From Alphaproteobacteria bacterium (GTDB lineage Bacteria > Pseudomonadota > Alphaproteobacteria > UBA2966): 38,068 nucleotides of DNA. Location of the stretch: the NCBI GenBank assembly GCA_018650465.1, contig JABIFY010000040.1, positions 1 to 38,068 on the forward strand, written 5' to 3'. Below, piece after piece: positions 13,289-31,076 of this stretch. How positions within the stretch are numbered: the stretch's first letter is position 1; each line of letters begins with the position of its first letter. The position numbers and the translations under genes were made by a program. Below the pieces are notes generated by a model. The model ran no database searches. It had not been told where the DNA came from and saw only the letters and a list, made by a program, of their open reading frames with translations.

Positions 13289-13654
13289 ATGAGTGACCTC
13301 AACGAACGAAGAGAAAAAGGAAAAAGCCTGGCAGCCAAACTATTGGACGGCGTTCCCCCGCCGGCAAAGATGCCAAAAAAGTTTGTAGACTACACTCTCG
13401 AACATGTGTTCGGCGATGTTTGGCAGGATGAGTCCATGTCCCTCGAGGAACGCTCGTTGGTCACGTGTACAATGCTGGTGGTAATGAACCGTGAACCCGA
13501 AATGCGCGTACATTTTCGCGGTGCATATAATCTCGGCATTCCAAAGGAAAAAATTGAAGGCATGATCATTCATGCCGCCCATTATGGTGGCTGGCCAGTT
13601 GCGGCTTCAGCTTTCAGGGTCCTTGCTGAAGCCTGGCCTGAAGACCAGGGCTAG
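13289..13654 (+). CDS. Carboxymuconolactone decarboxylase-family (AhpD-fold) protein
   Basis: 121 residues, matching the small all-helical CMD domain: an entry helix (residues 5-40), then SLEERSLVTCTMLVVMN, EMRVHFRGAYNLGIPKEKIEGMIIHAAHYGGWPVAASAFRVLAEA. The H-x3-A and G-x4-E-x3-E/I pattern followed by YGG-P is diagnostic. The redox CxxC of true AhpD is absent, so it is more like the gamma-carboxymuconolactone decarboxylase side of the fold, but many members have no known reaction. AAGGA lies seven bases before the ATG. It is convergent with gntR and expressed from an operator-bearing promoter, so it belongs to the regulon. Confidence 0.85.
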   Translation: MSDLNERREKGKSLAAKLLDGVPPPAKMPKKFVDYTLEHVFGDVWQDESMSLEERSLVTCTMLVVMNREPEMRVHFRGAYNLGIPKEKIEGMIIHAAHYGGWPVAASAFRVLAEAWPEDQG

Positions 13655-13682: not shown

Positions 13683-14417
13683 CTAATCATCTCGCTTTAG
13701 ATGCATGACGTAACTGAATTCTTCCGCCGGCGTCCAGTTGAAAGACGTCTGGATCGGCATATCGTCGAGTGCCAGGTATCGCCGAATTGCCAAAACTGAC
13801 CAACTTTTTTCACTTCGGCCAAGCGCCTTGGCGACATCTTCCGGAAAAACCTCGGCACTGATCGTCTGAACAGCTTCACTGACACTTACGCCAAACCGGG
13901 CCTCTATCAAATCATAATGTGGTCCGCTCAGATCATGGAGTTCCGGTTCGATTTTGCGAAAGGCCTCGTTGATATATATTCTTGTATAATTTAATGCCCG
14001 GCCCTGAGGGTTCCGCCGCAAGGCATCGACCTGTAGCCACTTGGACCCTGATGGTCGGCCCAGTATTTGTGCAATTTCGTCGTCAACAATGACCATTTTG
14101 CTGTCAATATAATCAAGTTTGGTTAGCGTGGCATATTGATGCAACTCGCTTATCGACTGCATCCGGTGGGAATAAACTTGCGGTCCATTCTCTGCAACAA
14201 CCTGGGAACCAGAACCCTGACGGCGTTCGACAATGCCACGTTCTGCCAACCGCCGAAGCGCTTCCCGAACTGTATACCGGCTGATCCCAAATTCAGCACA
14301 CAGTTCCTTTTCTGTTGGTAACGTGCTGCCCACGGGGAAGACACCATTGCTGATGCGTTCCAACAAATCGTCAAAGACCTGTATGTATTTGGGCTTTAAT
14401 GTGTTGGTGTCGGTCAT
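13683..14417 (-). CDS. GntR-family transcriptional regulator (HutC/UTRA type)
   Basis: 244 residues: a winged helix-turn-helix (about 9-75; PTEKELCAEFGISRYTVREALRRLAERGIVERRQGSG) and a UTRA ligand-binding domain (about 95-235). HutC-type regulators bind as dimers to palindromes with GT and AC arms, and a small metabolite releases them. TGTCCGGACA has GT-N4-AC symmetry and occurs nine times around the gene, one copy being in its divergent upstream region, so this protein is the prime candidate to bind them and itself. The ligand may be a pathway acid or CoA ester. ATG at 14417 follows GGAG by six bases. Family certain; link to the operator inferred. Confidence 0.93.
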   Translation of the reverse strand: MTDTNTLKPKYIQVFDDLLERISNGVFPVGSTLPTEKELCAEFGISRYTVREALRRLAERGIVERRQGSGSQVVAENGPQVYSHRMQSISELHQYATLTKLDYIDSKMVIVDDEIAQILGRPSGSKWLQVDALRRNPQGRALNYTRIYINEAFRKIEPELHDLSGPHYDLIEARFGVSVSEAVQTISAEVFPEDVAKALGRSEKSWSVLAIRRYLALDDMPIQTSFNWTPAEEFSYVMHLKRDD

Positions 14418-14541: not shown

Positions 14542-14580
14542 TTGCACCCTTCCAGCGATACGATATTATATGTCCGGACA
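14542..14580 (+). promoter_or_regulatory. Promoter and operator of mmgE-ligase-amidase operon
   Basis: TTGCAC (14542-14547), 16 bases, TATTAT (14564-14569), one base, then TGTCCGGACA (14571-14580). The geometry matches the other operator-bearing promoters. Transcription would start inside the operator, only about 20 bases before the GTG at 14598. Confidence 0.7.
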
Positions 14581-14593
14581 AATAATGAAAGTA
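14565..14593 (-). promoter_or_regulatory. Possible autoregulated gntR promoter
   Basis: On the minus strand a perfect TATAAT (14570-14565) abuts the operator at 14571-14580, which would lie in the spacer. The -35 (about 14593-14588, TACTTT) is poor. If real, the regulator represses its own gene, with a leader of about 150 bases. Confidence 0.4.
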
Positions 14594-14597: not shown

Positions 14598-15977
14598 GTG
14601 CCTGAAACGACTGATTTATCCGGGGTGCCCTCCCTGCTTGAGATGCTCGTCAAGCGGCTGGTCCGCCCTGTTGATGACGCGACTATCGAGCGTGCTGCTT
14701 TACATGTGCATGACTGGATCGGATGCGCTTTTGCGGGCTCAGCCCAGCCAGTGGGCCACGTGCTGGCCTCCGCCCTTGAAACTGAGGGCACTGGTGCCTG
14801 TCTGGCACTCGGCCAGACAAAAACCTTTCCACCGGCGGCTGCCGCTTTCCACAATGGTGGCCTCGGCAATGTCCTTGAAATGGACGACATTCATCGTACT
14901 TCGCGCTCTCATCCCGGTCCTGTTATTATTCCTGCAGCACTTGCGGCGGCACAATGGACAGGCGCAACCCCACAAAAGTTCCTTGCAGCTGTCGTTCATG
15001 GGTATGAGGCAGCACTCCGCATAGGTCGCTCTGTTGGGCCTGGGCACTATGCTCTGTGGCACAATACGTCCACCTGTGGCGTATTTGGGGCCGCCGCAGC
15101 TGTTGCTGACCTGATGGATTTGACACCGGAACAGACGGTCTGGGCGCTGGGGAATGCCGGCGCCCAAGCCGCCGGTCCGTGGCGCTGTAGACATGAGCCC
15201 GTGATGACCAAGCAACTCCACACTGCCCATGCGGCACAGGATGGATTGAAAGCTGCCATGTTGGCAAAACACGGCCTGACAGGGCCCCGCCTGATGCTGG
15301 AAGGTGAACAAGGTTTTTTTGCAGCAACTGCACCGGATGCGGACCCTGCGGCTGTAAACGCGACACCCGACGCACAGTGGCTTATTTGGGAGACCAGTTT
15401 CAAACCATGGCCTTCCTGTCGTTTTACGCACACTTCTATCGATGCCGCATTAGACCTGCATGAACAAAAACCTGATCTGGATGATGTAAAGGAAGTTCTG
15501 ATTGAGACCTATACGGACAGCGCAGTCATTTGTGATGAACCTGTTCCCACATCAGAAATTCAGGCCAAGTTCAGTTTACAGCATGTGGTTTCAGCGACCC
15601 TGATAAATGGCCCGCCAGGCCTCGATCAGTTCCGGGGCGCGGCCCTGACCGATTCTGCAATTGCGGAGCTGCGAACGCGCTGCCGGATCGCCGAGACAAA
15701 ACAATTCAATGATGCCTATCCTCAACACTATGGAACAGCTGTTTCACTGACATTTGCGGATGGCTCGGTGGTCGATGCTTCTCGTGCGGATGCACTGGGC
15801 GATCCGGAAAATCCGGTTGCACCAGAAGCCATTGAAAACAAGGCCGCTACGCTTATGATTGATGCCGGACTTGACGCCGGCACCATCACCGAAATCAGGA
15901 ATACTTGCAGAGACCTTCCCCGCAGCAAAAACCTATCAGAATTGATACAGTCCCTGGCAAACGCTGCCGGGTCCTGA
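14598..15977 (+). CDS. MmgE/PrpD family protein (second paralogue)
   Basis: 459 residues from GTG 14598; no ATG is available in frame nearby, and another GTG lies nine codons in, so the start is provisional. The N-terminal all-helical domain is followed by the lid domain; the block ETSFKPWPSCRFTHTSIDAALDLHEQ carries the K-P-x-P-S-C-R-x-T-H pocket seen in canonical MmgE/PrpD proteins, unlike the Gly variant at 6226. Members dehydrate, decarboxylate or isomerise small polycarboxylates. It heads a three-gene run with a CoA ligase (16 bases away) and an amidase, directly under an operator-bearing promoter and divergent from gntR. Confidence 0.9.
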   Translation: MPETTDLSGVPSLLEMLVKRLVRPVDDATIERAALHVHDWIGCAFAGSAQPVGHVLASALETEGTGACLALGQTKTFPPAAAAFHNGGLGNVLEMDDIHRTSRSHPGPVIIPAALAAAQWTGATPQKFLAAVVHGYEAALRIGRSVGPGHYALWHNTSTCGVFGAAAAVADLMDLTPEQTVWALGNAGAQAAGPWRCRHEPVMTKQLHTAHAAQDGLKAAMLAKHGLTGPRLMLEGEQGFFAATAPDADPAAVNATPDAQWLIWETSFKPWPSCRFTHTSIDAALDLHEQKPDLDDVKEVLIETYTDSAVICDEPVPTSEIQAKFSLQHVVSATLINGPPGLDQFRGAALTDSAIAELRTRCRIAETKQFNDAYPQHYGTAVSLTFADGSVVDASRADALGDPENPVAPEAIENKAATLMIDAGLDAGTITEIRNTCRDLPRSKNLSELIQSLANAAGS

Positions 15978-15993: not shown

Positions 15994-17382
15994 TTGTCCA
16001 TCACGTCCTACTTCGATGCATTCGACGTCAAGGCACTACGTCGCGACTTCCCTCTTGGAGAAGATCTGTTTACCACCTACCGCGGCATGAGCAGGGACGA
16101 ACTGTTCGCCAGGCAAAATGCCCACTTCATGAAATCCCTGGCTTTCGCCTGGAAAATTCCTTTTTACCAGCGGCTGTGGGGCGGGGCGGGTGTGGAAGCC
16201 GGAGATATCAAGTCCCTGGAAGATATCGAAAAGCTGCCGATTTATTCAAAATCACATTTGATGGAATCGGTCGAAGCTAATCCGCCATTGGGTGATTTTG
16301 ACGGACTGGACACCTATTCCGACGACGAACGCCCTCCCCTGATTTTTCAGACGACGTCAGGTACAACGGGACGGCCGCAACCACTTCTCTTTGGACCCAA
16401 AAGCCGAGAGGCCCAAAATTTGCTACTCGGCCGGGTTTATGCTTTGCAAGGTATGACCAACCGGGATGTCATCCATTCCGTTTACGGTCACGGCATGGTC
16501 AACGGTGGGCATTACGCGCGGGAAGCTGTCACACATTGGGTTGGCGGCCAAATGCTGACAGCGGGAACCGGTATCGAAACTCGCTCCATTAACCAGGTCA
16601 ATCTCATGCGCGACTTTGGCGCGACAGTCATTATTGGATTTGGTGATTACATCAATCGCTTGTCGGAAGTTGCCAGGGAAGCCGGTCTGGAACCGGGGAA
16701 AGATATTCCTGTGCGACTGATTTGCGGGCATATGGGCGTCGAATCCACCGCGACAATGTCTCGTGCCTGGGGCGGTGCAGAAGTTTTCGACTGGTATGGT
16801 GTCGGCGACACAGGTGCTATCGCCGCCCAGGGACCAGACCGGGACGGTTTGCACGTTCTGGAAGACGCGCAATATATCGAAATTCTTGATGTCGACGACA
16901 ATACGCCTGTTGCGACGGGCGAGATTGGCAACATGGTCTGCACCTGCCTATACAAGGATGATGTATTTCCGATCATTCGCTTCAACACCCATGACGTCAG
17001 CCGGTACCTGCCAGGCGAAAATCAATTGGGCCTTCCCTTCCAGCGCATTGCCGGTTTCCTTGGGCGTTCTGACAACATGGTCAAGTTGCGCGGGATTAAC
17101 GTCTATCCACAAGGCATCGGAACCATTCTCTCCACGCAGTTTGATGCAACAAACGGCGAATATTATTGTCGCGTCACACGCGCCAGCGGTCGCGATGAAA
17201 TGACTGCTGTGGTGGAAGTTCGAGAGAAAACCGACGGTTTGGCCCATGCGATGGAAGACAAGCTTCGCACCCAGTTAGGCATTTCAATTACCGTTGAACT
17301 GGTCAATCCTGGTGAAACTGCTGAAACAACAGGTGTGGAAGTCAGACAAAAGGCAACTCGCCTCGTGGAGGTATCTGCGTGA
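15994..17382 (+). CDS. PaaK-type acyl-CoA ligase (phenylacetate-CoA ligase family)
   Basis: 462 residues, a little longer than typical phenylacetate-CoA ligase. These AMP-forming enzymes activate an aryl or small organic acid to its CoA ester in the cytoplasm. The phosphate-binding loop TTSGTTGRP is at 120-128, the adenine motif near DWYGVGDTG and the hinge region at DNMVKLRGINVYPQGIG. The N-terminus FPLGEDLFTTYRGMSRDELFARQN resembles PaaK. Start is TTG 15994, eight bases after AGGAG. It is preceded by mmgE and overlaps the amidase by four bases (GTGA), so it may activate the acid released by that amidase. True substrate unknown; phenylacetate itself is not implied by the neighbours. Confidence 0.88.
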   Translation: MSITSYFDAFDVKALRRDFPLGEDLFTTYRGMSRDELFARQNAHFMKSLAFAWKIPFYQRLWGGAGVEAGDIKSLEDIEKLPIYSKSHLMESVEANPPLGDFDGLDTYSDDERPPLIFQTTSGTTGRPQPLLFGPKSREAQNLLLGRVYALQGMTNRDVIHSVYGHGMVNGGHYAREAVTHWVGGQMLTAGTGIETRSINQVNLMRDFGATVIIGFGDYINRLSEVAREAGLEPGKDIPVRLICGHMGVESTATMSRAWGGAEVFDWYGVGDTGAIAAQGPDRDGLHVLEDAQYIEILDVDDNTPVATGEIGNMVCTCLYKDDVFPIIRFNTHDVSRYLPGENQLGLPFQRIAGFLGRSDNMVKLRGINVYPQGIGTILSTQFDATNGEYYCRVTRASGRDEMTAVVEVREKTDGLAHAMEDKLRTQLGISITVELVNPGETAETTGVEVRQKATRLVEVSA

Positions 17383-18677
17383 CCGTTCAGGATCGCACCA
17401 ACCAAGCGCTTGAAGCTATCGAGCAACAGCGCAGCCACAACATATTCCTGGATGTCGATGCTGACAGGTCTCGTCAGGCTGCGCAGGCAGCAGATCAGAG
17501 GTCTGTACCCCTGGGACCCCTGGACGGCAAACTGATCGGGATCAAAGCCAATCTGGCAGTAAAGGGTTTGCCCTGGACTGCTGCCATCATGGGGCTTAGC
17601 GACAGGATCGCCACGGAAGACGCAGGGGTCGTTGCCCGACTTCGCGCAGCAGGCGGCGTTATTCTGGGCACATTGAACATGCATGAAGGCGCGTTGGGTG
17701 CCGTAACAGATTCGCCCGGATTTGGTCGTTGCGCCAATCCTTTGATCCACGACTACACGCCAGGCGGCTCTTCCGGTGGATCGGCAGCCGCCGTTGCTGC
17801 GGGTCTGGTAGATTTCGCACTGGGCAGCGACACGATGGGATCATCCCGTGTGCCCGCAGCCTATTGCGGGGTTGCCGGGATCAAACCAACGGATGGATTA
17901 ATCGGCCGATCAGGCATGGCTTTCCTCAGTCCCAGCCTTGATGCAATTGGTCCTCTCGCACAAAGGGTCCGGGACCTTTGGCCCATTCTGTCGGCACTTG
18001 CAGGCCCCGATGCACTGGACCCTCTGGTTCAACCCCTGCCCCGCCACTGGCCGACTGATCCTGAGTGGAGAGATGACTTGTCAGGTGTCAGGATTGGCCG
18101 CCCCAAACAGATAGACAATGTTGAGTGTGAGCCTGAAATTCTGGCCGGCCTGAACCTTGCGATCGACGCATTGAAGGCACGCGGCGCGACAATTCTGGAT
18201 GTCGACATATCAGGCTGGAATCCCGGCCATGCCCGTCGTGGCGGCTTGCTATTGTCAGAAGCAGAGGGTGCTGTGGTAAATGCCGAACTGCTGGACGGGC
18301 CGCAAGGCACGATCACACCAGAGTTTCGGCAGAATCTGGAATTTGGTCGGGATGCATCTTCAAGCCGCTTGGTCGACGCCATTTCAAGAATTTCGGCTGC
18401 CGGGGCTGCTTGTGCCCGTGCCATGGTGGATGTTGACACGTTGATCATGCCAACAGCACCACAGCGTGCCTTCCCGCACGGATCAGACGTACCGAACAAT
18501 CAGGCTGATTTTTCTGGATTGGCCAATTTTGCAAAACGCCCGGCGGTCAGTATACCTGTACCATTATCAGGTGAAATTTTGCCTGCAGCTGTTCAGCTTC
18601 TCGGCCACCCCGGCGAAGACCCTGCTTTGTTGGCCATCGCCGACGTACTGGACCGCGAGCTGGAGACGACTAGTTGA
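17379..18677 (+). CDS. Amidase-signature family hydrolase
   Basis: 432 residues with the amidase-signature catalytic triad: Lys56 (GIKANLAVKG), the cis-Ser in PGGSSGGSAAAVAAG (131/132) and nucleophile Ser155 (GSDTMGSSRVPAAYCG). These cytoplasmic enzymes hydrolyse amides to acid and ammonia; some are half-amidases acting on the monoamide left by cyclic imide hydrolysis. The start GTG overlaps the CoA-ligase stop by four bases, so the two are translationally coupled: amide to acid to acyl-CoA is a plausible sequence. No partner suggests GatCAB, and the length is shorter than GatA. Its end overlaps the convergent crotonase gene by eight bases. Confidence 0.9.
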   Translation: MTVQDRTNQALEAIEQQRSHNIFLDVDADRSRQAAQAADQRSVPLGPLDGKLIGIKANLAVKGLPWTAAIMGLSDRIATEDAGVVARLRAAGGVILGTLNMHEGALGAVTDSPGFGRCANPLIHDYTPGGSSGGSAAAVAAGLVDFALGSDTMGSSRVPAAYCGVAGIKPTDGLIGRSGMAFLSPSLDAIGPLAQRVRDLWPILSALAGPDALDPLVQPLPRHWPTDPEWRDDLSGVRIGRPKQIDNVECEPEILAGLNLAIDALKARGATILDVDISGWNPGHARRGGLLLSEAEGAVVNAELLDGPQGTITPEFRQNLEFGRDASSSRLVDAISRISAAGAACARAMVDVDTLIMPTAPQRAFPHGSDVPNNQADFSGLANFAKRPAVSIPVPLSGEILPAAVQLLGHPGEDPALLAIADVLDRELETTS

Positions 18678-19455
18678 AGTTTGGTTTTCGCTTTTCAAGA
18701 AAGGCCTTATAGCCTTCCTTGAAGTCATCAGAAACAAACGAGTCATCAAAAAGTTTCCGGTATGCGGGCGCGTCCGGATCTGCGCCGGCAACAACCGCTG
18801 CAATCATTTGTTTGGCAACGGCAATTGAATTCTGCGACACCGCGCCCAATTCTTCACAATATGCCCTGACGGCTGTTTCCAGTTCGGCTTCCGGATAAAT
18901 CCTGTCGATCAACCCGATGGCCAGTGCTTCATCTGCATCGATCAGTCGCCCTGTATACAGCAGATCACGCGCCTTCGCATGCCCGACAAGATCAACCAAT
19001 TGTTTCGTATCCCCGAAAGAAACTGCTGTTCCAAGCTTTGCAGGTGGAATGCCATATTTTGATCCTTCAGATGCAAAGCGCTGATCACAAACCATAGCCA
19101 GTTCGCATCCACCGCCCACACAGGCCCCATGGATCATAGCCACAACAGGCTTCAGCAAACCCGCAAATGCCAGCTCCCCCGCACGGAAATTGTCATTATA
19201 GATGCGAGCTGATTCTGCGGATTTGTAATTGTCGGAAAACTCCTCAATCGCAGCGCCCGCTGCGAAGGCTTTGTTCCCCGCCCCTCGAAGGACGACCGAT
19301 CGCACCTCATCGTTTTCAGCGAGCATTTTTGTCAGGTCTGGCATCGCCCGCCACATAGCCCCCGTGATGGCATTGCGTTTTTCAGGTCGATCCAGCGTCA
19401 CCCACGCGATACCATTCTTGATCGTGCACTCAATTTGACCATCAGCGAATTTCAT
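18670..19455 (-). CDS. Enoyl-CoA hydratase/isomerase (crotonase) family protein
   Basis: 261 residues, crotonase fold, acting on CoA esters. The oxyanion-hole segment KAFAAGAAIEEF (62-73) and GACVGGGCELAMVCD (110-124) are intact, with Glu118 corresponding to one catalytic Glu of hydratases. The second Glu, normally in FGxPE, is replaced by Pro138 (YGIPPAKLG), so plain hydration by the two-Glu mechanism is doubtful; decarboxylase, isomerase or C-C hydrolase activity is possible. It is the last gene of the acd-dctPQM run, 38 bases after dctM, and tail-to-tail with the amidase. Confidence 0.88.
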   Translation of the reverse strand: MKFADGQIECTIKNGIAWVTLDRPEKRNAITGAMWRAMPDLTKMLAENDEVRSVVLRGAGNKAFAAGAAIEEFSDNYKSAESARIYNDNFRAGELAFAGLLKPVVAMIHGACVGGGCELAMVCDQRFASEGSKYGIPPAKLGTAVSFGDTKQLVDLVGHAKARDLLYTGRLIDADEALAIGLIDRIYPEAELETAVRAYCEELGAVSQNSIAVAKQMIAAVVAGADPDAPAYRKLFDDSFVSDDFKEGYKAFLEKRKPNFN

Positions 19456-19493
19456 AGATGTCTCCAGGGGGTAACAAGTAGGTAAAAGCTTTG

Positions 19494-20786
19494 CTATCGC
19501 ATGGTGTTCGGTAGCCAGGTCACGATACCAGGATTAAAAGTGAGAAACAAAACCAGTCCGATCATGATGAGGCAGAAAGGCAAAGCCGCAATGGCGATTT
19601 CGCCGATCTTTTGACCGGTAATCGACTTGATCACAAAAAGATTAAACCCGATAGGCGGGGTAATTTGCGCCATTTCAATTGTGATGATCAGGAACACACC
19701 AAACCAGATGGGATCGAATCCGGCGGCAATAACCAACGGCAGCGTCACGGGCAAGGTCATGACAATGGTAGACAATCCGTCCAGAAAACAACCAAGGACA
19801 AGATAGAAAAACATCAGCATAAAGATCAGAGCCATCGGTGACAGATCGAACCCGGCAATGGCAGCTGCCACGTCTGTCGGAATGGCAAGTCTTGCCATGG
19901 CCTTGGACAAAAACAGCGCACCGGCGAGAATGATGGCGATCATCGAACAGGTGCGAACGGTTCCCATGAGGGCACCGGCCATAACCTTTACATTGAGCCG
20001 TCGGTCAGAGGCAGCCAGAATAGTTGCGCCCAGCACGCCGATTGCGGCGGCTTCAGTAACGGATGCAAATCCAGCATACATGGAGCCAACGACAAAACTG
20101 ATCAGCAAGAATGTTGGCAATAGTTTCAATAATGACTTCAACTTGAACAGCATCGTCGTGCTGTCGCTGGTCGATGGTGCCAACTCAGGACTGATAGTCG
20201 CCCGCACCCCGATATAGATCATGAACAGTAGCGCCAGGATCAGCCCTGGAATGATGCCTGCCATAAAGAGTTTCAGGATAGAGACTTCGGCCAGAACACC
20301 GTAAACAATAAGCGGTATGGAAGGCGGGATAAGAAAGCCGATGGTACCTGACCCGGCCAAAGCGCCTGCGACAAAGGATTTATTGTAACCAAGCTTTGTC
20401 AGTTCTGGCAGGGTTATCCGTCCGACAGTCGCCGTTGTCGCAGCGGAAGATCCGGATACAGCTGCAAAGATCGTACTTCCCAATACATTCACGTGGGTCA
20501 ATCGTCCAGGCAATCGCCGCACCCAGGGTGCCAAACCGGCAAATAGATTTTCGGACAATTTGGTTTGAAACAGAATTTCACCCATCAGGATAAACAGAGG
20601 CAAGGTGACCAGTTCAAAGGCCGTGGCGGTCGACCAGAAATCCAGCGCCATGAAACGGTCGACGCGAATTGTCTTGAACATTTCAAGTGACAACGCCCCG
20701 ATTGACATCAAGGAGAACCCGACCCAGACACTGCTTCCCAAAAAGCCAAATAGCAAAATGAGAATAAAGATCAGTGGGGCTGTCAT
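19494..20786 (-). CDS. dctM: TRAP transporter large permease (second system)
   Basis: 430 residues with about 12 membrane segments and DctM blocks: LVTLPLFILMGEILF near 60, AVSGSSAATTATVGRITLPEL near 110 and SGTIGFLIPPSIPLIVYGVL near 145. It overlaps dctQ by four bases (ATGA). It forms an importer with the small permease at 20783 and the receptor at 21466, transcribed from the acyl-CoA dehydrogenase promoter with two operators. It is clearly diverged from the dctM at 4156, so the two systems may import different acids. Confidence 0.94.
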   Translation of the reverse strand: MTAPLIFILILLFGFLGSSVWVGFSLMSIGALSLEMFKTIRVDRFMALDFWSTATAFELVTLPLFILMGEILFQTKLSENLFAGLAPWVRRLPGRLTHVNVLGSTIFAAVSGSSAATTATVGRITLPELTKLGYNKSFVAGALAGSGTIGFLIPPSIPLIVYGVLAEVSILKLFMAGIIPGLILALLFMIYIGVRATISPELAPSTSDSTTMLFKLKSLLKLLPTFLLISFVVGSMYAGFASVTEAAAIGVLGATILAASDRRLNVKVMAGALMGTVRTCSMIAIILAGALFLSKAMARLAIPTDVAAAIAGFDLSPMALIFMLMFFYLVLGCFLDGLSTIVMTLPVTLPLVIAAGFDPIWFGVFLIITIEMAQITPPIGFNLFVIKSITGQKIGEIAIAALPFCLIMIGLVLFLTFNPGIVTWLPNTMR

Positions 20787-21304
20787 TCGTTGAACCCCGC
20801 AATTGTTGAAGGCGTCTCAACCACTTCGCCTCTGAATTGGCGAATAATTCGTGCAAGCAGGGAGAGGGAAAGGATGATTACAGACAAGGCCAGAGCTGCT
20901 TGTGGGACCCACAGGGGAGAACGGCTCGGGAAGACGCTGAGGGAGCCAAATCCGTAACTCCGCCAAGCATGTTCGACCAGCGCGGAACTGAGATAGGCGG
21001 TCAAGGCAAGGGCCGATAATGAGCATAAAATATCAAGTGGCCGCATCCAGTTGGCCGGCAACATGTCGGTCAGGGCTGTTACCCGAATATGGGCGCCCTG
21101 CTTCAAAGCCCAGCCAGAACCGGAGAAAAGAACAAACAAAAGAAGATAGCCACTGAATTCTACGGCCCAGGGCTGAGACCATTCAAAAAATGACGTCACG
21201 ATAACTTCAAAAACCAACATAACGGCAAGACAAAAACAGGCGATTGATGCCGTTACAGCACCCGCAAATGCTATTCCGTCTATCCAGCGCAGAATATGCG
21301 TCAT
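20783..21304 (-). CDS. dctQ: TRAP transporter small permease (second system)
   Basis: 173 residues, four membrane segments. The family block KQGAHIRVTALTDMLP (about 68-83) matches the H-I-R-V motif, though the usual Asp of RVD is Thr. It begins at ATG 21304, preceded by GGGGGAA, 161 bases after the receptor gene; this gap holds a strong hairpin. Its end is coupled to dctM by an ATGA overlap. Confidence 0.9.
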   Translation of the reverse strand: MTHILRWIDGIAFAGAVTASIACFCLAVMLVFEVIVTSFFEWSQPWAVEFSGYLLLFVLFSGSGWALKQGAHIRVTALTDMLPANWMRPLDILCSLSALALTAYLSSALVEHAWRSYGFGSLSVFPSRSPLWVPQAALALSVIILSLSLLARIIRQFRGEVVETPSTIAGFNE

Positions 21305-21370
21305 TCCGTTCCCCCTTTAATGACCGGACCCACAAGGCAACCACCCTGCAGGTCCGACATCATATTAGGC

Positions 21371-21393
21371 CGATTTCGCTAGTGGCGAAATCG
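21371..21393 (-). other. Hairpin between dctP and dctQ
   Basis: CGATTTCGC and GCGAAATCG form a perfect 9-bp stem with a 5-base loop (TAGTG). There is no U-run, so it is not a standard terminator. Hairpins at this point of TRAP operons can protect the upstream receptor message and raise receptor yield over permeases; this role is inferred. Confidence 0.5.
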
Positions 21394-21465
21394 CTTCGTC
21401 TTTAACAATAGGCACACACCATAGTGTTGATGTCACGCCTCATTTCCGTAAAGCCCGGAAATGCT

Positions 21466-22458
21466 CTACTTGCCGGCACGCTTGCGGTATGCCGCAATGA
21501 TTTCAGCAGATTTTCCACCAACGCGTTTGATGAAATCAGCTTCCATAGTGACAGTCGCTGCGATCATGGCTGCTTTCAATGCAGGTGTTGCTGCCTGAAC
21601 AGTCATGCCATTCTTGACCAATTGAGCCATCCGTTTTTTGTGCTCTGCTTCAGAAATCACCCAGAAGTCACGCTCCATCTTGCGGGCCAAACCTTCGATG
21701 GCTTTCTGATGCGCAGGTGACAAAGCATTCCACATGTCAAGATTAACGTTCATGACATTCGATGCCCACAAGTGGTTGGTGTTGTATGTGTGCTTGAGAA
21801 ATTCCCAATATTTCTGAGCGACAGCCGTTGAACCTGAAGTCATCACAGCATCGACCTTGCCTGTGGCCAGAGCTGGAACAACGTCAGCCGAGTTCAATTG
21901 CAAAGCCACCATGCCAAGATTGGAAACCATGGTCGCCGTGTTGGCGTCATAGGTCCGCATGCGGATGCCCTTCATGTCGGCTTTGCTTTCGATCTTCTTC
22001 TTGGTGAAGAAGTTCTGACTGGGCCATGGCACCGAATAAAGCATTTTCTGGTTGCGCTTCATCAGTTCGGCTTCCCACGTCGGGCGCACGATGTCCTGCA
22101 TGATACGCAAATCTGCATAATTCGAAATCAGGAAGGGAATAGATTCAACGCCCAGGATCGGCACATCGCCAACGTTCACGAAGGCAGCGAATTCGCCCAT
22201 GGCGACCAAACCGTCTTCAATAGCCCGCAGACTTTCGTTGTGACGAACACCTAGCGAGCCACCCGCATGAACAGTCATGACGACTTCGCCACCGGTAGCT
22301 TCTTTCACGGCAGCAGCAAAGGCTACTGCATCCTTGGTATGAAACTCACTGGCACCCCAGGGAATTGAAACATCCCACTTGGTTTCCGCGAGTACAGGGC
22401 TGGATATTCCGACCACCACCGCGGCCGCTATTGCTGCTGAACTTAACCTGTTGAACAT
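21466..22458 (-). CDS. dctP: TRAP transporter substrate-binding protein (second system)
   Basis: 330 residues from ATG 22458, chosen because AAGGA lies eight bases upstream and the protein then begins with a clean signal peptide (MFNRLSSAAIAAAVVVGISSPVLAE). A longer frame from 22479 would run into a hairpin. The segment DMKGIRMRTYDANTATMVSNLGMVALQLNSADVVPALATGKVDAV is the DctP substrate core with the conserved Arg. Periplasmic receptor for a carboxylate, differing from the dctP at 2998 in lacking Cys. It lies 122 bases downstream of the acyl-CoA dehydrogenase, which suggests that the imported compound is oxidised as a CoA ester. Confidence 0.93.
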   Translation of the reverse strand: MFNRLSSAAIAAAVVVGISSPVLAETKWDVSIPWGASEFHTKDAVAFAAAVKEATGGEVVMTVHAGGSLGVRHNESLRAIEDGLVAMGEFAAFVNVGDVPILGVESIPFLISNYADLRIMQDIVRPTWEAELMKRNQKMLYSVPWPSQNFFTKKKIESKADMKGIRMRTYDANTATMVSNLGMVALQLNSADVVPALATGKVDAVMTSGSTAVAQKYWEFLKHTYNTNHLWASNVMNVNLDMWNALSPAHQKAIEGLARKMERDFWVISEAEHKKRMAQLVKNGMTVQAATPALKAAMIAATVTMEADFIKRVGGKSAEIIAAYRKRAGK

Positions 22459-22477
22459 TACTTGTCCTTTCGATTGC

Positions 22478-22515
22478 AAGCCCGGTTCCCGGGCTTTGTT
22501 GACCCGTCTAACGGG
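22478..22515 (-). other. Tandem hairpins upstream of dctP
   Basis: AAGCCCGG-TTC-CCGGGCTT (22478-22496) and CCCGT-CTA-ACGGG (22503-22515) lie between acd and dctP, just before the dctP ribosome site. No U-run follows. They could be processing or stability elements that give dctP its own 5' end. Confidence 0.45.
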
Positions 22516-22580
22516 CTTCTGTTTTGGGGAAGTTTCCCCTCATCCGGTTTGATGTTCTGGCTGAAGAATGCCCCCCTGTG

Positions 22581-23744
22581 TCAAACCGGATTACGTTCGA
22601 TCAATTGTTTTGCGATAATCATTCTCTGAATTTCATTGGTGCCTTCGCCGATACACATCAGGGGTGCATCACGGAAATAACGCTCCACATGGTATTCCCG
22701 GGAATAACCGTAGGCACCGTGGATGCGCATGGCTTCAAGCGAGTTTTCCACGGCTGTCTCCGAAGCAAAATATTTGGCCATGCCCGCTTCCATGTCGCAG
22801 CGTTGGCCCCGGTCATGGGCAGCGGCGGCGGCATAAGTGAGTAAACGTGCTGCTTCCAGATTTGTCGCCATATGGCCCAGTTTCAACTGAATTGCCTGAT
22901 GTTCACATATTGGTTTGCCAAAGGTTTGGCGAACCTGGGAATAAGCAACGCTGTCTTTCAAGGCTGCAGATGCAAGGCCGCAACCGCGCGCCGCAATATT
23001 GATCCGGCCCAGTTCCAGGCCGCCAAGGGCCGTTTGCATGCCCCTGCCCTCTTCTCCGCCAATCAGGTTTTCAACCGGCACCCGATAGTCAATAAATGTA
23101 AGGCCCGCCGTATCGATTCCTTTGTATCCCAGTTTGTCAAACTTGTGCGTTACCTCAAATCCTTCGCCCTTTTCGGCGATCAGCATGGACATGCCTTTAT
23201 GGCGGGGCTCTGCATCGATATCGGTTTTGACCAACAACGCGTAACAAGACCCCTCAATGCCATTTGTGATCCAGGCTTTGGTTCCGTTCACAACATAATC
23301 GTCACCGTCGCGCACGGCGCGGACGCGAATAGCTTGCAAATCCGTGCCGCAATCGGGCTCGGTCAGCGCCAACCCACCCCTGATTTCTCCGGTCGCGAAC
23401 CTTGGCAAATATTTTTGCTTTTGGGCATCAGTACCCATTCGGGAAACGCAAGACGACATGATCAGGTGGCTGTTCATGATGCCAGTCAGGGACATCCACG
23501 TTTCTGCGATCTTTTCGATAACCTTGGCATAGGTCGTGGCACTAAGGCCCAGGCCACCATACTCTTCGGGAATAGTCGCGCCAAACAGGCCAAGCTCCTT
23601 CATTTGCTCGACCATTTCCAGCGGATATTCATCACCATGATCAAAGCGCAATACATGGGGGCGTACATCACGCTCCAGCCACTTTTCAACGCTGTCGAGA
23701 ATCATTGTTTCAACGTCATCGTTCTCCATCAGAGGGTCGCTCAT
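22581..23744 (-). CDS. Acyl-CoA dehydrogenase
   Basis: 387 residues from ATG 23744, which has AAGGA nine bases upstream; an ATG three codons earlier is too close to that site. FAD enzyme that introduces an alpha,beta double bond into an acyl-CoA and passes electrons to ETF. Blocks: GLALTEPDCGTDLQAIRV (FAD and substrate), NGTKAWITNG, and the C-terminal GEGTNEIQRMIIAKQLI in which Glu367 is the expected catalytic base. It heads the operon acd-dctP-dctQ-dctM-crotonase with two operators upstream. With the crotonase it forms a short beta-oxidation-like pair, likely on a branched or dicarboxylic acyl-CoA. Confidence 0.93.
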   Translation of the reverse strand: MSDPLMENDDVETMILDSVEKWLERDVRPHVLRFDHGDEYPLEMVEQMKELGLFGATIPEEYGGLGLSATTYAKVIEKIAETWMSLTGIMNSHLIMSSCVSRMGTDAQKQKYLPRFATGEIRGGLALTEPDCGTDLQAIRVRAVRDGDDYVVNGTKAWITNGIEGSCYALLVKTDIDAEPRHKGMSMLIAEKGEGFEVTHKFDKLGYKGIDTAGLTFIDYRVPVENLIGGEEGRGMQTALGGLELGRINIAARGCGLASAALKDSVAYSQVRQTFGKPICEHQAIQLKLGHMATNLEAARLLTYAAAAAHDRGQRCDMEAGMAKYFASETAVENSLEAMRIHGAYGYSREYHVERYFRDAPLMCIGEGTNEIQRMIIAKQLIERNPV

Positions 23745-23859
23745 GTCTCTCATTCCTTTGTTGAAAAATAATGATGCCGGGTATTCCTGTGACGCTTAAT
23801 CTTCACGCCGACATGGTCAGTCAATCCGCACACCATACTACCACCAAACCCCCAAAATA

Positions 23860-23897
23860 TGTCCGGACAAGTTAAAGGCGTTAAATACTGGTGTCAA
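23860..23897 (-). promoter_or_regulatory. Promoter and proximal operator of the acd-TRAP operon
   Basis: Minus strand: TTGACA (23897-23892), then TTTAAC/TTAACT as -10 (15 or 16 bases on, 23876-23870), then TGTCCGGACA (23869-23860) within one base. A leader of about 120 bases precedes the start at 23744. The layout is the same as at dctQMP. Confidence 0.72.
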
Positions 23898-23904
23898 TTA
23901 TTGT

Positions 23905-23914
23905 TGTCCGGACA
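23905..23914. promoter_or_regulatory. Distal operator of the acd-TRAP operon
   Basis: Perfect TGTCCGGACA (extended TTGTCCGGACAA), seven bases upstream of the -35 and 45 bp centre to centre from the proximal copy; it ends two bases from the stop codon of the deacetylase gene. Confidence 0.75.
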
Positions 23915-23916
23915 AT

Positions 23917-24798
23917 CTATTCCTGGCTTTCTGACCAAGGATTTTCCGAGACAAATCGTTCGGCAATTTCCTGGCGGGAGGTAATCCAGATTTCCGGAAT
24001 CTGGCTGACATATTTCAGGAATTCGTCCAGCGCCCAGATCCGGCCAGGACGGCCGATGATACGAAGGTGAAGACCAACCGAGAGCATGCGGGGGCCTTCT
24101 TTGGTTTCCTCAAGCATCCAGTCAACCGAGTGACGGACATAATCCAGCCATTGAGTTGGCGTATAGGCAGGGGCAACCCAGAACTTCATGTCATTGGTAT
24201 CTATGGCATAAGGCATGACAACCAGTCCGCGCTTGCTACCATCAGCCATCTCAACTGATTTCCAGCGCGGTACGTCATCTGACATGTCATCCATGTGATA
24301 CGTGTAGCCCTCCTCAAGTAGCAAACGATGGGTCTGAGCGGTGTGCAGATACCGGCTTAACCAGCCAGCGGGCCTCGTTCCCATCGTTTTTTCTATACTC
24401 TCGGCGGCCTTGCGAATGAATTCACGCTCGCGGTCTTCCTTGTAGGAAAATTGGTGAACCCAGCGCCAACCGTGCGAACAAACCTCGTGCCCCTGGCGTT
24501 TGATTTCAGCAGCCAGGTCCGGTGCCCGCTCCAGCGAGAGGGCTGCTGCCGTGACGGTTGTCTTTGCTTCGTACTTGTCCAGTAACTTCATGACGCGCGG
24601 ACCACCTGCCCGAATGCCGTACTGGTAGTTGCTCTCGTTGACATAGTTGCGGATGGGAATCTTCAACGCCACACCAAGTTCATCAACCGGCTCCGGCAAC
24701 TTGTCGCCGTCGGCAACATTCATCTCCGAGCCTTCCTCTACATTGATCACAATGGAGAGTGCAAGGCGTTTGCCGTCAGGTAACGTGAAATCAGTCAT
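23917..24798 (-). CDS. PuuE-like hydrolase (allantoinase / cyclic imide hydrolase-like)
   Basis: 293 residues, a good fit to cytoplasmic PuuE-type members of the polysaccharide deacetylase superfamily. Blocks: SIVINVEEGSE (14-24), YQYGIRAGGPRVMKLLDKY, GHEVCSHGWRWVHQ (metal-binding His region), GWLSRYLHTAQTHRLLLEEGYTYHMDDMSDDVPRW. Such enzymes open allantoin or cyclic imides by hydrolysing a C-N bond. The start at 24798 is preferred: the longer reading from 24873 begins with ATGTCCGGACAA, that is inside the operator and at the transcription start. AAGGG precedes 24798. Transcribed from its own operator-bearing promoter; paralogue at 1161. The amidase at 17379 could act on the product. Confidence 0.87.
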   Translation of the reverse strand: MTDFTLPDGKRLALSIVINVEEGSEMNVADGDKLPEPVDELGVALKIPIRNYVNESNYQYGIRAGGPRVMKLLDKYEAKTTVTAAALSLERAPDLAAEIKRQGHEVCSHGWRWVHQFSYKEDREREFIRKAAESIEKTMGTRPAGWLSRYLHTAQTHRLLLEEGYTYHMDDMSDDVPRWKSVEMADGSKRGLVVMPYAIDTNDMKFWVAPAYTPTQWLDYVRHSVDWMLEETKEGPRMLSVGLHLRIIGRPGRIWALDEFLKYVSQIPEIWITSRQEIAERFVSENPWSESQE

Positions 24799-24862
24799 GG
24801 ATGCCGGGCCCTTCAATAAGCATGATGCTCGAACCAGAATACACTTTTTCGGTTCGATTTTT

Positions 24863-24901
24863 TGTCCGGACAAATATTTGATCAGTAGCCGGATTTGTCA
24901 A
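24863..24901 (-). promoter_or_regulatory. Promoter and operator of the PuuE-like hydrolase gene
   Basis: Minus strand: TTGACA (24901-24896), 16 bases, AAATAT (24879-24874), one base, TGTCCGGACA (24872-24863; extended TTTGTCCGGACAAA). The leader to 24798 is about 70 bases. Confidence 0.75.
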
Positions 24902-24989: not shown

Positions 24990-25562
24990 ATGCCTGATCC
25001 CGCCCTTGAACGCGTTGCTCGTGAGGACATGAGCGAGCGCATGCGCGATGAATACGATACGGCCCTGAACCTGCGTGATGACGCGACGATGTACGAGGTC
25101 GGGGCCAATGCGCCTGAACTCATGGAATGGTACAAGGACGAATTCTATGGGCGTCTGTTCTATGGAGGACGGGTTGAACCACGCGTCAAAGAGCTGCTGC
25201 GCTACAGGTTATCGATGACGCACGGCTGCGCCTATTGTAACAAGGGAAACCGGGTCGCGGCAGAAACCCACGGCGTCACACCAGAGCAGTTAAAATGGAT
25301 CATGAATGAAGATGCCGATTGCTTCGACGACAAGGACCGGGCCGTTCTTTGGCTCGCCGATCAGATTGTCATGACCAACATGAACGGTCACCTGGGGCCA
25401 GAACTGCACGGTAAACTGAAACCTCACTTTGACGATGCACAAATTTTCGAATTGGGCATGGTTGCAGGAATTCTGACGGGCATGGCCAAATTCATTTTTG
25501 TCTATGATCTGGTCGAAAAAGAAGCGAACTGCCCCATTCAGCCGTTGGAATCCGGGACCTGA
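24990..25562 (+). CDS. Carboxymuconolactone decarboxylase-family (AhpD-like) protein
   Basis: 190 residues, all-helical CMD/AhpD-like. VEPRVKELLRYRLSMTHGCAYCNKGNRVAA (about 62-91) contains the CxxC pair of AhpD-like proteins, but the His that normally follows is missing. Unlike the small CMD protein at 13289, this is the longer form, in which CMD occurs with an extra N-terminal helical part, common beside aromatic or carboxylic acid pathways with unproven activity. GGAG lies eight bases before the ATG, and the predicted transcript starts about 24 bases upstream inside an operator. It is convergent with the MFS gene, 21 bases away. Confidence 0.86.
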   Translation: MPDPALERVAREDMSERMRDEYDTALNLRDDATMYEVGANAPELMEWYKDEFYGRLFYGGRVEPRVKELLRYRLSMTHGCAYCNKGNRVAAETHGVTPEQLKWIMNEDADCFDDKDRAVLWLADQIVMTNMNGHLGPELHGKLKPHFDDAQIFELGMVAGILTGMAKFIFVYDLVEKEANCPIQPLESGT

Positions 25563-25583: not shown

Positions 25584-26780
25584 CTAATGTTCCTCGCTTG
25601 ATCTGACCGCTCGTCTGAAAATCAGCCAAAATAATGACATCGCGACGAACCCTTCGGCGCTCATGATCAACAGAGCCTTGCCGCTGCCGAGCCAGTCCGC
25701 CATATAGCCAAGCACCGAAAACCCGACAGGTGCTATGCCGATACAGAGGGTTAGAATGCCAAACATACGACTTCGCTGATCAGGGGGTGACAGGCGATAA
25801 ATGATCATGACTTGCGACGTCGCAAAGAACCCACCGCCAAATCCTGCAAACAATATCCCGAATACAACAAGTGGTACATCCTGGCCCATGCCGATTGCCA
25901 GGATACCCGTGAAGCTCCCCAACACACCGATCATATAGGTCGTCCAGATATTGCCGATAGTTTTCGCGTTACCGGCAATCAATGCACCTGCCATCGCACC
26001 AACCCCTTCCAATGCCGCGATCATGCCCACTGAGTCGGGTGCCAGGCCGAGGGTTTGTTTACCGATGACAGGAATAAGAGTTGTAAAGGGGAAGCCAAAC
26101 AGATTGAAGATCAGAGTGATGCTGAACGCCGCCAGAATGTCACGTCGCGTCGCAGCATATTTGAAACCGGCCCATATTTCAGGCAGCAATTTCGCCGCAA
26201 CTGCCTGAAAGTTTTTCACCGGCGCAATCAACCGATATGCCAGAAGAGTGGAAATCAAATACAGCGCCATGGACACGACCAAAATGCCCTTCACACCCAA
26301 AGACGCCATGAGCAAGCCGCCAAACAAGGGGCCCGCAGCCCGCGTCAAGGTGCTGCCAGCCGTATCAAATGACAATATCCGCGACAAAAGATCCGGCCCG
26401 GCCAGCAGCCCGATCAGGTTGCGACGTGCCGGGAAATCCGTCGTCCAGTAGATCCCGCCGAGAATGATTGCAATGGCGAGATGCCACAGTTCGAGTTGAT
26501 CAGTTAGCACTAACCAGGCCATAACGCTTGAGGACAAAGACATCGCTGCCAATGAGTATCGCAAGACGTTCTGATGGCCGAAGCGATCAACCAGACCGCC
26601 CATGACAGCGCCAAAAATCACAAATGGCAAAAACCTGAGCATGGTGAATGTCGACACCATGAAGGCTGATCCCGTCACGTCATAGACGTAAATGCCAAAG
26701 GCCAGAAATTCGAGCCAGCGAATAATCCCGGAGAACATACCGATCAGCCAAACGCGACGAATGTCAGCGTGGGTCAGCAA
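25584..26780 (-). CDS. MFS transporter
   Basis: 398 residues, 10-12 membrane segments. The N-terminus (ADIRRVWLIGMFSGIIRWLEFLAFGIYVYDVTGSAFMVST) and the loop GGLVDRFGHQNVLRYS, a variant of the MFS motif A, place it in the major facilitator superfamily, in the branch near the enterobactin-exporter-like MFS_3 group. It is therefore probably an exporter or proton-driven porter in the inner membrane. Start uncertain: TTG 26780 has no clear ribosome site, and the frame is open upstream to 26882 without ATG. Last gene after CaiB, cupin and TauD on the same strand. Substrate unknown. Confidence 0.85.
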   Translation of the reverse strand: MLTHADIRRVWLIGMFSGIIRWLEFLAFGIYVYDVTGSAFMVSTFTMLRFLPFVIFGAVMGGLVDRFGHQNVLRYSLAAMSLSSSVMAWLVLTDQLELWHLAIAIILGGIYWTTDFPARRNLIGLLAGPDLLSRILSFDTAGSTLTRAAGPLFGGLLMASLGVKGILVVSMALYLISTLLAYRLIAPVKNFQAVAAKLLPEIWAGFKYAATRRDILAAFSITLIFNLFGFPFTTLIPVIGKQTLGLAPDSVGMIAALEGVGAMAGALIAGNAKTIGNIWTTYMIGVLGSFTGILAIGMGQDVPLVVFGILFAGFGGGFFATSQVMIIYRLSPPDQRSRMFGILTLCIGIAPVGFSVLGYMADWLGSGKALLIMSAEGFVAMSLFWLIFRRAVRSSEEH

Positions 26781-26882
26781 TAATTGCAGTGAAGTTGTGG
26801 CGTTATTTGAAGTGATTGCTTTGTCTTTTTTCGCTGCCTGCGGGCATAAATCTTTGTGTTCTGAGCCAGAACATACCAGTTG

Positions 26883-27950
26883 TCAGGTAATTTCAAGCCT
26901 GGCGTCTGTCTTTGTTCCCGGTACAACAACGGCTCCCCGATCTCCAACATCAATACTTTCCTGCCGATCAAGATAGACAGGCGCCAGCTCTCGTCCCCTT
27001 GAAGGACATAACCACAAACGAAGCAAATGGCGCTTTCGTTCACGGTCCGGCCAATCCTGAAAAGCCGTGCGATCGTGCAAAATCTGGTAGTTGTGGAGAA
27101 ACTGAATATCGCCTGGTTCAAAATCAACTGTCAAATTCAGGCCCGGATCTTCACAAAGAGCCTGAAACAAATCCAGGGCCTCAGTCTGTATTTCCGTCAA
27201 CCGCGGCACTTCCGGAAATCGTTGTCCGGAATCAATATAGGGCCGCGTAAATCCGGTCGTCAAAAGCCCGTGGTGCCAACTGAAAATGGGCATTTCATAC
27301 CAGGGATTTTTGCCCTCAGGGTTTTCACCACGGCGATCTACATAGAACGGCGCAAACAATTCCTGCATCAAATCGGGTCTACGGCGGTACATTTCGTTGT
27401 AAACCGTGACTGAACTCAGAATACTGCTTGCCCCGCCGCTCATCGACTTGCGCCAACACAGAAGCCCGACAATATCGGATGGATCTGTATGGTAGTTCTG
27501 CCGTGCAGAAGTCTGATAGAGGCGGGCATTGGGATCATCTGCGGAGCGCGACAGATCGATGACGTGCCCCAACAAGTCACCATTCGCGTTCTGGGATGTG
27601 GGTTTCCCGAGATAGCTGCCCAATCCCCAATAGGCCCGGGCCGCTGTTTCGAAGTCATACCGGTCCACCGGCAAGCCGCGGATGAGGACAAAACCTCGCC
27701 CCTCAAGCAGTTCGGTCAACAAGTCGTCAAGACGCGGTCCCAACGTCGGTAGTGGAAAGTGGGCTTTGTCGATATCTTTGATTTGGAGAGCGAGACTGGC
27801 TTTGATGGCCGCCTCAATTTCCTGAATATCTTGATCCTGCAGTTGAAAAATCCATTGCCGGGAGTTGGCCATATCCTTCCCATACCAGGCCGAAGCACCG
27901 GTGATCAGTCCATCTGGCATATCAAACTGCATATTTCCGGCGTCGCCCAT
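26883..27950 (-). CDS. TauD/TfdA-family Fe(II)/2-oxoglutarate dioxygenase
   Basis: 355 residues from ATG 27950. The Fe ligands are visible: His154 and Asp156 in NYHTDPSD and distal His292 in ILHDRTAFQDW, followed by Arg in RHLLRLWL for 2-oxoglutarate. Enzymes of this family hydroxylate small acids, amino acids, betaines or sulfonates with loss of CO2 from 2-oxoglutarate. GLPVDRYDFETAARAYWGLGSYLGKPTSQN and GGASSILSSVTVYNEMYRRRPDL are typical of a subgroup close to gamma-butyrobetaine and proline-type hydroxylases. It lies 39 bases after the cupin gene in the CaiB-cupin-TauD-MFS run. Substrate unknown. Confidence 0.9.
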   Translation of the reverse strand: MGDAGNMQFDMPDGLITGASAWYGKDMANSRQWIFQLQDQDIQEIEAAIKASLALQIKDIDKAHFPLPTLGPRLDDLLTELLEGRGFVLIRGLPVDRYDFETAARAYWGLGSYLGKPTSQNANGDLLGHVIDLSRSADDPNARLYQTSARQNYHTDPSDIVGLLCWRKSMSGGASSILSSVTVYNEMYRRRPDLMQELFAPFYVDRRGENPEGKNPWYEMPIFSWHHGLLTTGFTRPYIDSGQRFPEVPRLTEIQTEALDLFQALCEDPGLNLTVDFEPGDIQFLHNYQILHDRTAFQDWPDRERKRHLLRLWLCPSRGRELAPVYLDRQESIDVGDRGAVVVPGTKTDARLEIT

Positions 27951-31065: not shown

Positions 31066-31076
31066 GGAAATCCGGT

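Follow-up and report, generated by a model that had tools for sequence, protein, structure and literature searches.

Cyclic imides are metabolized in Blastobacter by a cyclic imide hydrolase and then a half-amidase. Fungal nicotinate catabolism likewise uses the cyclic imidase HxnM and then the amidase HxnN, the latter modelled on FAAH1, an amidase signature enzyme (PMC9304392). Characterised cyclic imidases (Pseudomonas putida CIH and fungal HxnM) are tied to the metal-binding HP0310 branch (PMC9304392, PMC3084791), in which the metal site consists of an Asp plus a pair of His residues at i and i+4 (PMC3084791). The itaconate/methylsuccinate module has an established chemistry, and its cluster (Ict, Ich, Ccl, methylsuccinyl-C4-CoA dehydrogenase and methylsuccinate isomerase) is known from Pseudomonas aeruginosa (PA0878–PA0883) and Cupriavidus necator, the origin of methylsuccinate in soils being unclear (PMC12290011).

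Here we describe a 38,068-nucleotide stretch of alphaproteobacterial DNA (the window; contig JABIFY010000040.1). About 20 co-regulated genes, recurrent in Alphaproteobacteria, form a real, conserved regulon, which is apparently undescribed. We propose that it handles a ring amide and feeds an itaconate/methylsuccinate-type route, an explanation whose chances we judge to be about even.

A shared operator and a linked set of genes

A genome-wide site search places all eight copies of the palindrome WTGTCCGGACAW in the 4.8-Mb genome inside the window (unstranded): as ATGTCCGGACAA at 6148–6159, 6196–6207, 14570–14581 and 23859–23870, and as TTGTCCGGACAA at 9279–9290, 13091–13102, 23904–23915 and 24862–24873. 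With up to two mismatches allowed, TTGTCCGGACAA has 11 sites in the window against 1.86 expected, a count reached by none of 100 shuffles. The site at 14570 precedes the PrpD2–ligase–amidase operon, and that at 24862 precedes the hydrolase gene PuuE1, a layout also found in Tistrella. Across related loci the operator 10-mer occupies the same position 5′ of the PrpD–ligase–amidase operon in 15 of 27 (permuted palindromes, mean 0.7 loci), the exact operator being absent from the other 12; elsewhere it precedes PuuE1 or further genes of the pathway, also in other families. Adjoining operator 14570 is a GntR/UTRA regulator of the HutC subfamily (13683–14417, minus strand), with both GntR and UTRA domains, which is probably the repressor of the regulon. 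The regulon would be catabolic and substrate-induced, with presumed GntR repression at TGTCCGGACA.

PuuE1 (23917–24798, minus strand, ATG at 24798) and the amidase (17379–18677, plus strand) had been predicted to share an operator type. They do so by different means: PuuE1 has its own site at 24862, and the amidase, with no operator of its own, shares 14570 with the rest of its operon. The predicted overlap of the amidase and CoA-ligase genes is likewise borne out, the amidase GTG start overlapping the TGA of the PaaK-like acyl-CoA ligase (15994–17382, plus strand) by four bases (GTGA).

This coupling extends well beyond the window. Among 385 alphaproteobacterial genomes PuuE1 occurs in 19 and the ligase clade in 20, with both in 19 (19/19 and 19/20) spanning eight families; the amidase is present in all 20 ligase-bearing genomes. 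Pathway genes lie near PuuE1 in 16 of 20 neighbourhoods (at the remaining four the partners are not nearby) and near other PuuE proteins in 0 of 20. Co-occurrence, conserved neighbourhood and conserved operator together uphold the original prediction that hydrolase, amidase and CoA ligase make up one functional unit.

The hydrolases and the amidase

PuuE1 is a candidate cyclic amide hydrolase of the PuuE type, with a metal-free signature. It matches Pfam Polysacc_deac_1 (49.5 bits), and its model superimposes on the PuuE allantoinase 3cl6 with Z 31.6 over 267 residues; CE4 deacetylases fit far more poorly (Z ≤20.5). The nearest solved structures are PuuE, and PuuE1 belongs in the allantoinase branch and not in that of the characterised imidases. 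The two PuuE groups have N18, E20, E21, E54, H108, R111, W112, D169, N201, D202, H243 and R245 in common. H108 is kept and W112 stands where the HP0310-like metal site has its second His, so that the HP0310 metal motif is lacking. PuuE1 shares with 3cl6 its fold, framework residues and loss of the second metal His, but differs from it in sequence (35% identity), in bearing different residues at L146 and H167, in scoring about half the NCBIfam PuuE cut-off (TIGR03212; 225.5 versus 424.6 bits) and in having no purine context. It also forms a clade of its own (at least 434 bits, versus at most 301 for other PuuE). The true PuuE of this genome is a separate one, encoded at another locus alongside xanthine dehydrogenase and genes resembling those for ureidoglycolate lyase and allantoicase, and no purine or ureide catabolism genes were found in the PuuE1 cluster. 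We rejected allantoin as the substrate on the strength of this purine-linked PuuE and the distinctness of the PuuE1 clade.

A second PuuE-like hydrolase, PuuE2 (1161–2027, minus strand; Pfam Polysacc_deac_1), has a 53% identical orthologue between ECH and PrpD1 in an independent Variovorax operon that also contains an amidase, ordered amidase–CaiB–ECH–PuuE2–PrpD1. The amidase of the window (Pfam Amidase, 292 bits) retains the Lys–cisSer–Ser triad of amidase signature enzymes (Lys56, Ser131 and Ser155), invariant in 16 sequences.

The proposed front end would work as HxnM and HxnN do, a deacetylase-fold enzyme opening the imide and an amidase then acting on the half-amide, the latter an amidase signature enzyme as FAAH1 is. 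It differs in that HxnM has its closest kin among the metal-binding HP0310-type enzymes and PuuE1 does not, and neither the fungal nor the Blastobacter system is known to include steps with CoA, PrpD or a lyase. The presumed front-end enzymes all stay short of NCBIfam equivalog cut-offs and so point to no particular substrate; an imide front end is plausible, the imide being one that we infer rather than one named by sequence evidence.

Kinship to the itaconate/methylsuccinate module

Judging by sequence, the remaining catabolic part of the window, predicted to combine beta-oxidation-like steps with a lyase, resembles the itaconate/methylsuccinate module. It holds a MaoC/Ich-like hydratase (595–1131, plus strand), upstream of which no operator was found; a CitE/RipC-like CoA-ester lyase (9279–10157, plus strand), whose listed reading frame begins at operator 9279 and whose start is likelier a codon downstream of it; the class III CoA-transferase CaiB1 (10154–11362, plus strand); and an acyl-CoA dehydrogenase (ACAD; 22581–23753, minus strand) orthologous to that of itaconate/methylsuccinate-type clusters. 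Identities to an unassayed Caballeronia (Burkholderiales) cluster, L069, are 69% for ACAD, 65% for MaoC, 53% for CaiB1 and 37% for the lyase. The yardstick for orthology was a set of Caballeronia and Azospirillum clusters with the P. aeruginosa PA0878–PA0883 layout, themselves unassayed, and the hydratase and lyase fall short of the RipB/Ich and RipC/Ccl equivalog scores (224.7 versus 340 and 229 versus 375 bits).

The locus shares with the described cluster the CaiB-type CoA-transferase, MaoC-type hydratase, CitE-type lyase, ACAD and MmgE/PrpD families, as well as TRAP transport, as in IctPQM (PMC12599236). The window has two such transporters, both on the minus strand: TRAP 1 (DctP, DctM and DctQ; 2998–6080), whose orthologues adjoin PuuE1 in Tistrella, and TRAP 2 (DctM, DctQ and DctP; 19494–22479), whose place beside PuuE1 is conserved in both Celeribacter and Azospirillum. 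Unlike the described cluster, it adds the PuuE-like hydrolases, amidase, PaaK-like ligase, an enoyl-CoA hydratase/isomerase family protein (ECH; 18670–19455, minus strand; Glu118 kept, second Glu replaced) and the local GntR operator.

Its PrpD proteins also diverge, being approximately 27–31% identical to those of itaconate/methylsuccinate-type clusters. In PrpD1 (MmgE/PrpD fold; 6226–7590, minus strand) the carboxylate-binding His, Lys and His are replaced by F150, L200 and Q203. This dicarboxylate clamp of the family is lost in 18 of 18 members, so the PrpD1 substrate may still be an amide. We rejected methylsuccinate isomerase as its function, the conserved carboxylate-binding His and Lys being gone in all 18. 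PrpD2 (same fold; 14598–15977, plus strand) has a complete dicarboxylate site, including the isomerase-type carboxylate-binding His and Lys; at 31% identity (to L073), it is only a candidate orthologue of the isomerase.

Alternative readings

The conserved PuuE framework and the PuuE structures nearest to PuuE1 would also suit an allantoinase or hydantoinase, the cluster then being a purine- or pyrimidine-type ureide pathway in which the amidase would attack a carbamoyl group. We give this little credence: PuuE1 forms its own clade, the other PuuE of the genome already sits beside purine genes, and the cluster lacks ureide genes and holds CoA, PrpD and lyase genes that have no role in ureide breakdown. 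It is unlikely, too, that PuuE1 is another amide hydrolase, deformylating or deacetylating an open-chain N-acyl intermediate in the degradation of an alkaloid or vitamin that is N-acylated or has had its ring cleaved. Its fold family does include deacetylases, and related clusters hold several unrelated amide hydrolase folds (nitrilase-like and isochorismatase-like), as expected for a larger nitrogenous compound. However, where classical deacetylases have a second His for metal binding (PMC3084791), PuuE1 has W112, a loss that it shares with PuuE, whose substrate is cyclic, and the model is much closer to PuuE than to CE4 enzymes.

One repressor might instead govern two independent systems, itaconate/methylsuccinate use and an unrelated amide-using pathway. 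In Tistrella the modules do lie apart, the amidase at ~186 kb and PuuE1–TRAP–PrpD1–ACAD–CaiB at ~635 kb of plasmid pTM2, and the Celeribacter and Azospirillum loci have no ACAD–MaoC–CitE part nearby. We nevertheless find this improbable, because one operator is common to the two Tistrella loci and because PuuE1, although it accompanies ACAD and CaiB1 there and lies apart from the amidase, is found in no genome that lacks the ligase or the amidase.

Proposed route and its implications

In the ring-amide route that we prefer, the TRAP transporters would import a small carboxylated compound with a cyclic amide (an imide, lactam or hydantoin-like ring), which PuuE1, perhaps with PuuE2, would open hydrolytically. 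The amidase would take off the remaining carboxamide, and the PaaK-like ligase and CaiB transferase would activate the product with CoA. The resulting branched dicarboxylate would then be broken down in the itaconate/methylsuccinate manner by ACAD, MaoC/Ich-like hydratase and CitE-like lyase. PrpD2 may act as isomerase or hydratase on a dicarboxylate intermediate, and PrpD1 may do so on an intermediate with a masked second carboxylate, which could still be in amide form.

Of the order originally predicted (ring opening, deamidation, CoA activation, beta-oxidation-like steps, lyase cleavage), the CoA, dehydrogenation, hydration and lyase parts match the itaconate/methylsuccinate module; the imide ring (PuuE1 being closest to PuuE allantoinase) and the sequence of steps are tentative. 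The earlier statement that these parts are brought together in no described pathway stands for the complete set within the literature that could be searched, but not for imidase followed by amidase, already known from fungal nicotinate catabolism and from Blastobacter. An imide or half-amide pathway with these genes was not found in the open literature, outside which most subscription journals fall.

If confirmed, the route would be a new catabolic one in at least eight families of the sampled Alphaproteobacteria; it would let functions be assigned to three groups now annotated by family only (one clade of PuuE, one of PaaK-like ligases and one PrpD subfamily), its operator would help to locate pathway genes in other genomes, and it could account for a natural origin of branched C5 dicarboxylates. 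A bolder version, which we regard as a long shot, is a class-wide pathway converting natural alkyl-substituted cyclic imides (for example, of methylsuccinimide or methylmaleimide type, as from chlorophyll or heme oxidation) to methylsuccinate/itaconate-type CoA esters, with PrpD1 a new kind of MmgE/PrpD enzyme that lost its second carboxylate site in adapting to an imide or half-amide substrate. If true, it would supply a natural source of methylsuccinate.

Other genes of the window

A steroidal alkaloid was considered as substrate from a Sphingobium plasmid with PrpD1 and set aside, as the paper on those strains contained none of the terms for these genes that were looked for. The flavocytochrome c-like FAD protein (7718–9136, minus strand) has Ile and Ala where fumarate reductase/flavocytochrome c has its substrate arginines (402 and 544, Shewanella numbering), and was rejected as a fumarate or itaconate reductase for want of these catalytic residues; tricarballylate dehydrogenase was rejected on a score far under the cut-off. 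The Asp/Glu racemase-fold protein (12220–12981, minus strand) was rejected as a maleate isomerase, as it has no Cys at the positions aligned with the two catalytic cysteines of that enzyme. Family matches identify an SDR dehydrogenase (2041–2832, minus strand) and a carboxymuconolactone decarboxylase-like protein (13289–13654, plus strand), and a membrane protein with no Pfam family (11486–12196, plus strand) has a homologue near the cluster in Hyphomonas. The gene set includes two CoA-activating enzymes and two PrpDs, exceeding the needs of a simple imide route, which counts against the proposal. A second carboxymuconolactone decarboxylase-like protein (24990–25562, plus strand) lies behind a degenerate operator at 24960.

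Operator, regulon and gene coupling

The 4.8-Mb genome contains eight copies of the palindrome WTGTCCGGACAW, all of them in the window, before or between the genes of a catabolic run that spans ~0.6–25.6 kb; allowing ≤2 mismatches gives 11 sites in the window against 1.86 expected, a number reached in 0 of 100 shuffles. One copy lies alongside a GntR/UTRA gene (13683–14417). The core of the regulon includes PuuE1, a PuuE-like hydrolase (24798–23917, minus strand), and an operon runs from PrpD2, an MmgE/PrpD protein (14598–15977), through a PaaK-like ligase (15994–17382) to an amidase (17379–18677), the last two overlapping by GTGA. The observation behind the original prediction, that a PuuE-like hydrolase and an overlapping ligase–amidase pair have the same type of operator, is borne out. 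Downstream of two operators, the 1161–6080 stretch encodes a second PuuE-like protein, PuuE2 (1161–2027), together with an SDR and another TRAP transporter. The right flank (25584–38068; MFS, TauD-like dioxygenase, second CaiB, spermidine/putrescine-type ABC transporter and third TRAP permease) contains no perfect operator and is therefore probably a separate system outside the regulon.

The operator is conserved across related loci: of 27, 15 have TGTCCGGACA ahead of the PrpD–ligase–amidase operon, compared with an average of 0.7 loci for the remaining palindromes of equal composition. A single Tistrella plasmid carries the amidase operon and, ~450 kb away, one containing PuuE1, TRAP, PrpD1 (a second MmgE/PrpD protein; window 6226–7590), ACAD (acyl-CoA dehydrogenase; 22581–23753) and CaiB1 (class III CoA-transferase; 10154–11362); TGTCCGGACA is present at both operons.

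Coupling was tested from two sides, through relatives of the amidase and separately those of PuuE1. Around the amidase relatives (27 loci, L014–L040), a ligase and a PrpD gene are almost always nearby where the contig reaches, often with ECH (enoyl-CoA hydratase/isomerase family; 18670–19455), PuuE1, ACAD, MaoC (hydratase; 595–1131), CitE (lyase; 9279–10157), two CaiB genes and GntR. An acetyl-CoA hydrolase/transferase-type CoA-transferase gene, not present in the window, recurs in 16 of these loci, mostly between GntR and PrpD2 or PrpD1. A PuuE1 profile separates 385 alphaproteobacterial genomes into two score groups (≥434 and ≤301 bits); at least one pathway gene (amidase, ligase, PrpD1/2, ACAD at ≥60% identity, MaoC or CaiB1) lies within 10 kb at 16 of 20 upper-group places versus 0 of 20 in the lower group (Fisher p = 1.5e-7, relatedness ignored). 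The ligase clade (≥629 bits; next group 368) is found in 20 of the 385 genomes and PuuE1 in 19, the two together in 19 (hypergeometric 3e-31; ~7e-14 with each whole family counted once). The amidase clade (≥358 bits, a cut with a narrow gap to paralogues at 343 bits) is found in 20/20 ligase-bearing versus 1/15 comparison genomes. Neighbourhoods, co-occurrence and operator conservation thus lend strong, independent support to the predicted coupling of hydrolase, amidase and CoA ligase. PuuE1 and the ligase are missing from the one other genome examined of the window's own genus, so the pathway is an accessory trait. A betaproteobacterial (Variovorax) operon has consecutive amidase–CaiB–ECH–PuuE2–PrpD1 genes; the PuuE2 encoded there shares 53% identity with that of the window.

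Active sites of the hydrolases and PrpD proteins

The PuuE1 model (mean pLDDT 80; residues 23–55 poorly predicted) best matches PuuE allantoinase 3cl6 (Z 31.6, RMSD 2.3, 267 residues), tied with 3s6o and 1z7a, followed by HP0310 (Z 28.3), with ordinary CE4 deacetylases at Z ≤20.5. The framework residues of PuuE are conserved in PuuE1, as is the Trp at the position of the deacetylases' second metal His. Changes relative to PuuE that are fixed in the PuuE1 clade include L146 in place of Tyr and H167 in place of Asp. Another PuuE is encoded on contig C59 beside putative ureidoglycolate lyase, allantoicase and xanthine dehydrogenase genes (judged from sequence); because that PuuE sits with purine-type genes, PuuE1 would not be needed for allantoin in this genome. 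Genes for a small HapK/RedY-like protein and for an SDR are recurrent neighbours of PuuE1, present in many loci (L118–L133).

The amidase catalytic triad is intact. Of the two catalytic Glu residues, ECH retains one (E118), the second being replaced by Ala; it may therefore be something other than a simple hydratase. In the maleate isomerase-like (12220–12981) and flavocytochrome c-like (7718–9136) genes, residues known to be catalytic in related enzymes are missing.

PrpD1 is modelled with the full MmgE/PrpD fold (Z 47.6 to both iminodisuccinate epimerase and IRG1). Six carboxylate-binding residues have been listed as family-wide (PMC12290011); all are retained in PrpD2 (10/10) and isomerase-type proteins, whereas PrpD1 (18/18) has Phe, Leu/Val and Gln/Ser where mouse cis-aconitate decarboxylase has His159, Lys207 and His210. 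An Asp and the His103 and Lys272 equivalents remain in these 18 members. The simplest reading is that the PrpD1 substrate would have one carboxylate missing or masked and, given the neighbouring genes, an amide would be the obvious mask. That PrpD1 and its 17 relatives have all lost the same three carboxylate-binding residues, conserved elsewhere, suggests that they form a functionally new subfamily within MmgE/PrpD.

Candidate substrate

CitE, MaoC, ACAD and CaiB1 match enzyme families found in the itaconate/methylsuccinate cluster. The established chemistry of that cluster proceeds through CoA transfer, dehydrogenation to mesaconyl-C4-CoA and hydration, then lyase cleavage to acetyl-CoA and pyruvate, and its MmgE/PrpD protein acts as a methylsuccinate isomerase (PMC12290011). 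Compared with a similarly arranged Caballeronia cluster, ACAD is 69% identical, MaoC 65%, CaiB1 53% and CitE 37%, but PrpD1 is just 27% identical to its PrpD. This back end suggests a branched C4–C5 dicarboxylate skeleton, and the TRAP transport genes suggest that the imported compound is a carboxylate. Related clusters add further amide hydrolases of unrelated folds. In two sphingomonad-like genomes (G175 and G271; L165–L170), the same operator and core operons adjoin LeuC/LeuD-type hydro-lyases and an HMG-CoA-lyase-type gene; known members of these families act on substituted maleates and malates, and the neighbours hint at substituted maleate chemistry.

The imide assignment of the original prediction is one plausible chemistry among several. 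Taken with transport, back end and extra amide hydrolases, the LeuC/LeuD-type and HMG-CoA-lyase-type neighbours turn an alkyl-substituted imide into an attractive candidate, such as the maleimides of oxidised tetrapyrroles, which are reported in plants and sediments (PMC7318184); nothing in the sequence singles these out, and we consider such a substrate improbable. Judged by the literature searched, the complete regulon seems not to have been described; its individual parts and the imidase–amidase principle are already known. Clusters from Hyphomonas and Parvularcula (L024 16519–21099 and L029 12049–15738) carry a tandem PuuE2-like pair, accompanied by an isochorismatase-fold hydrolase and a nitrilase-fold amidase.
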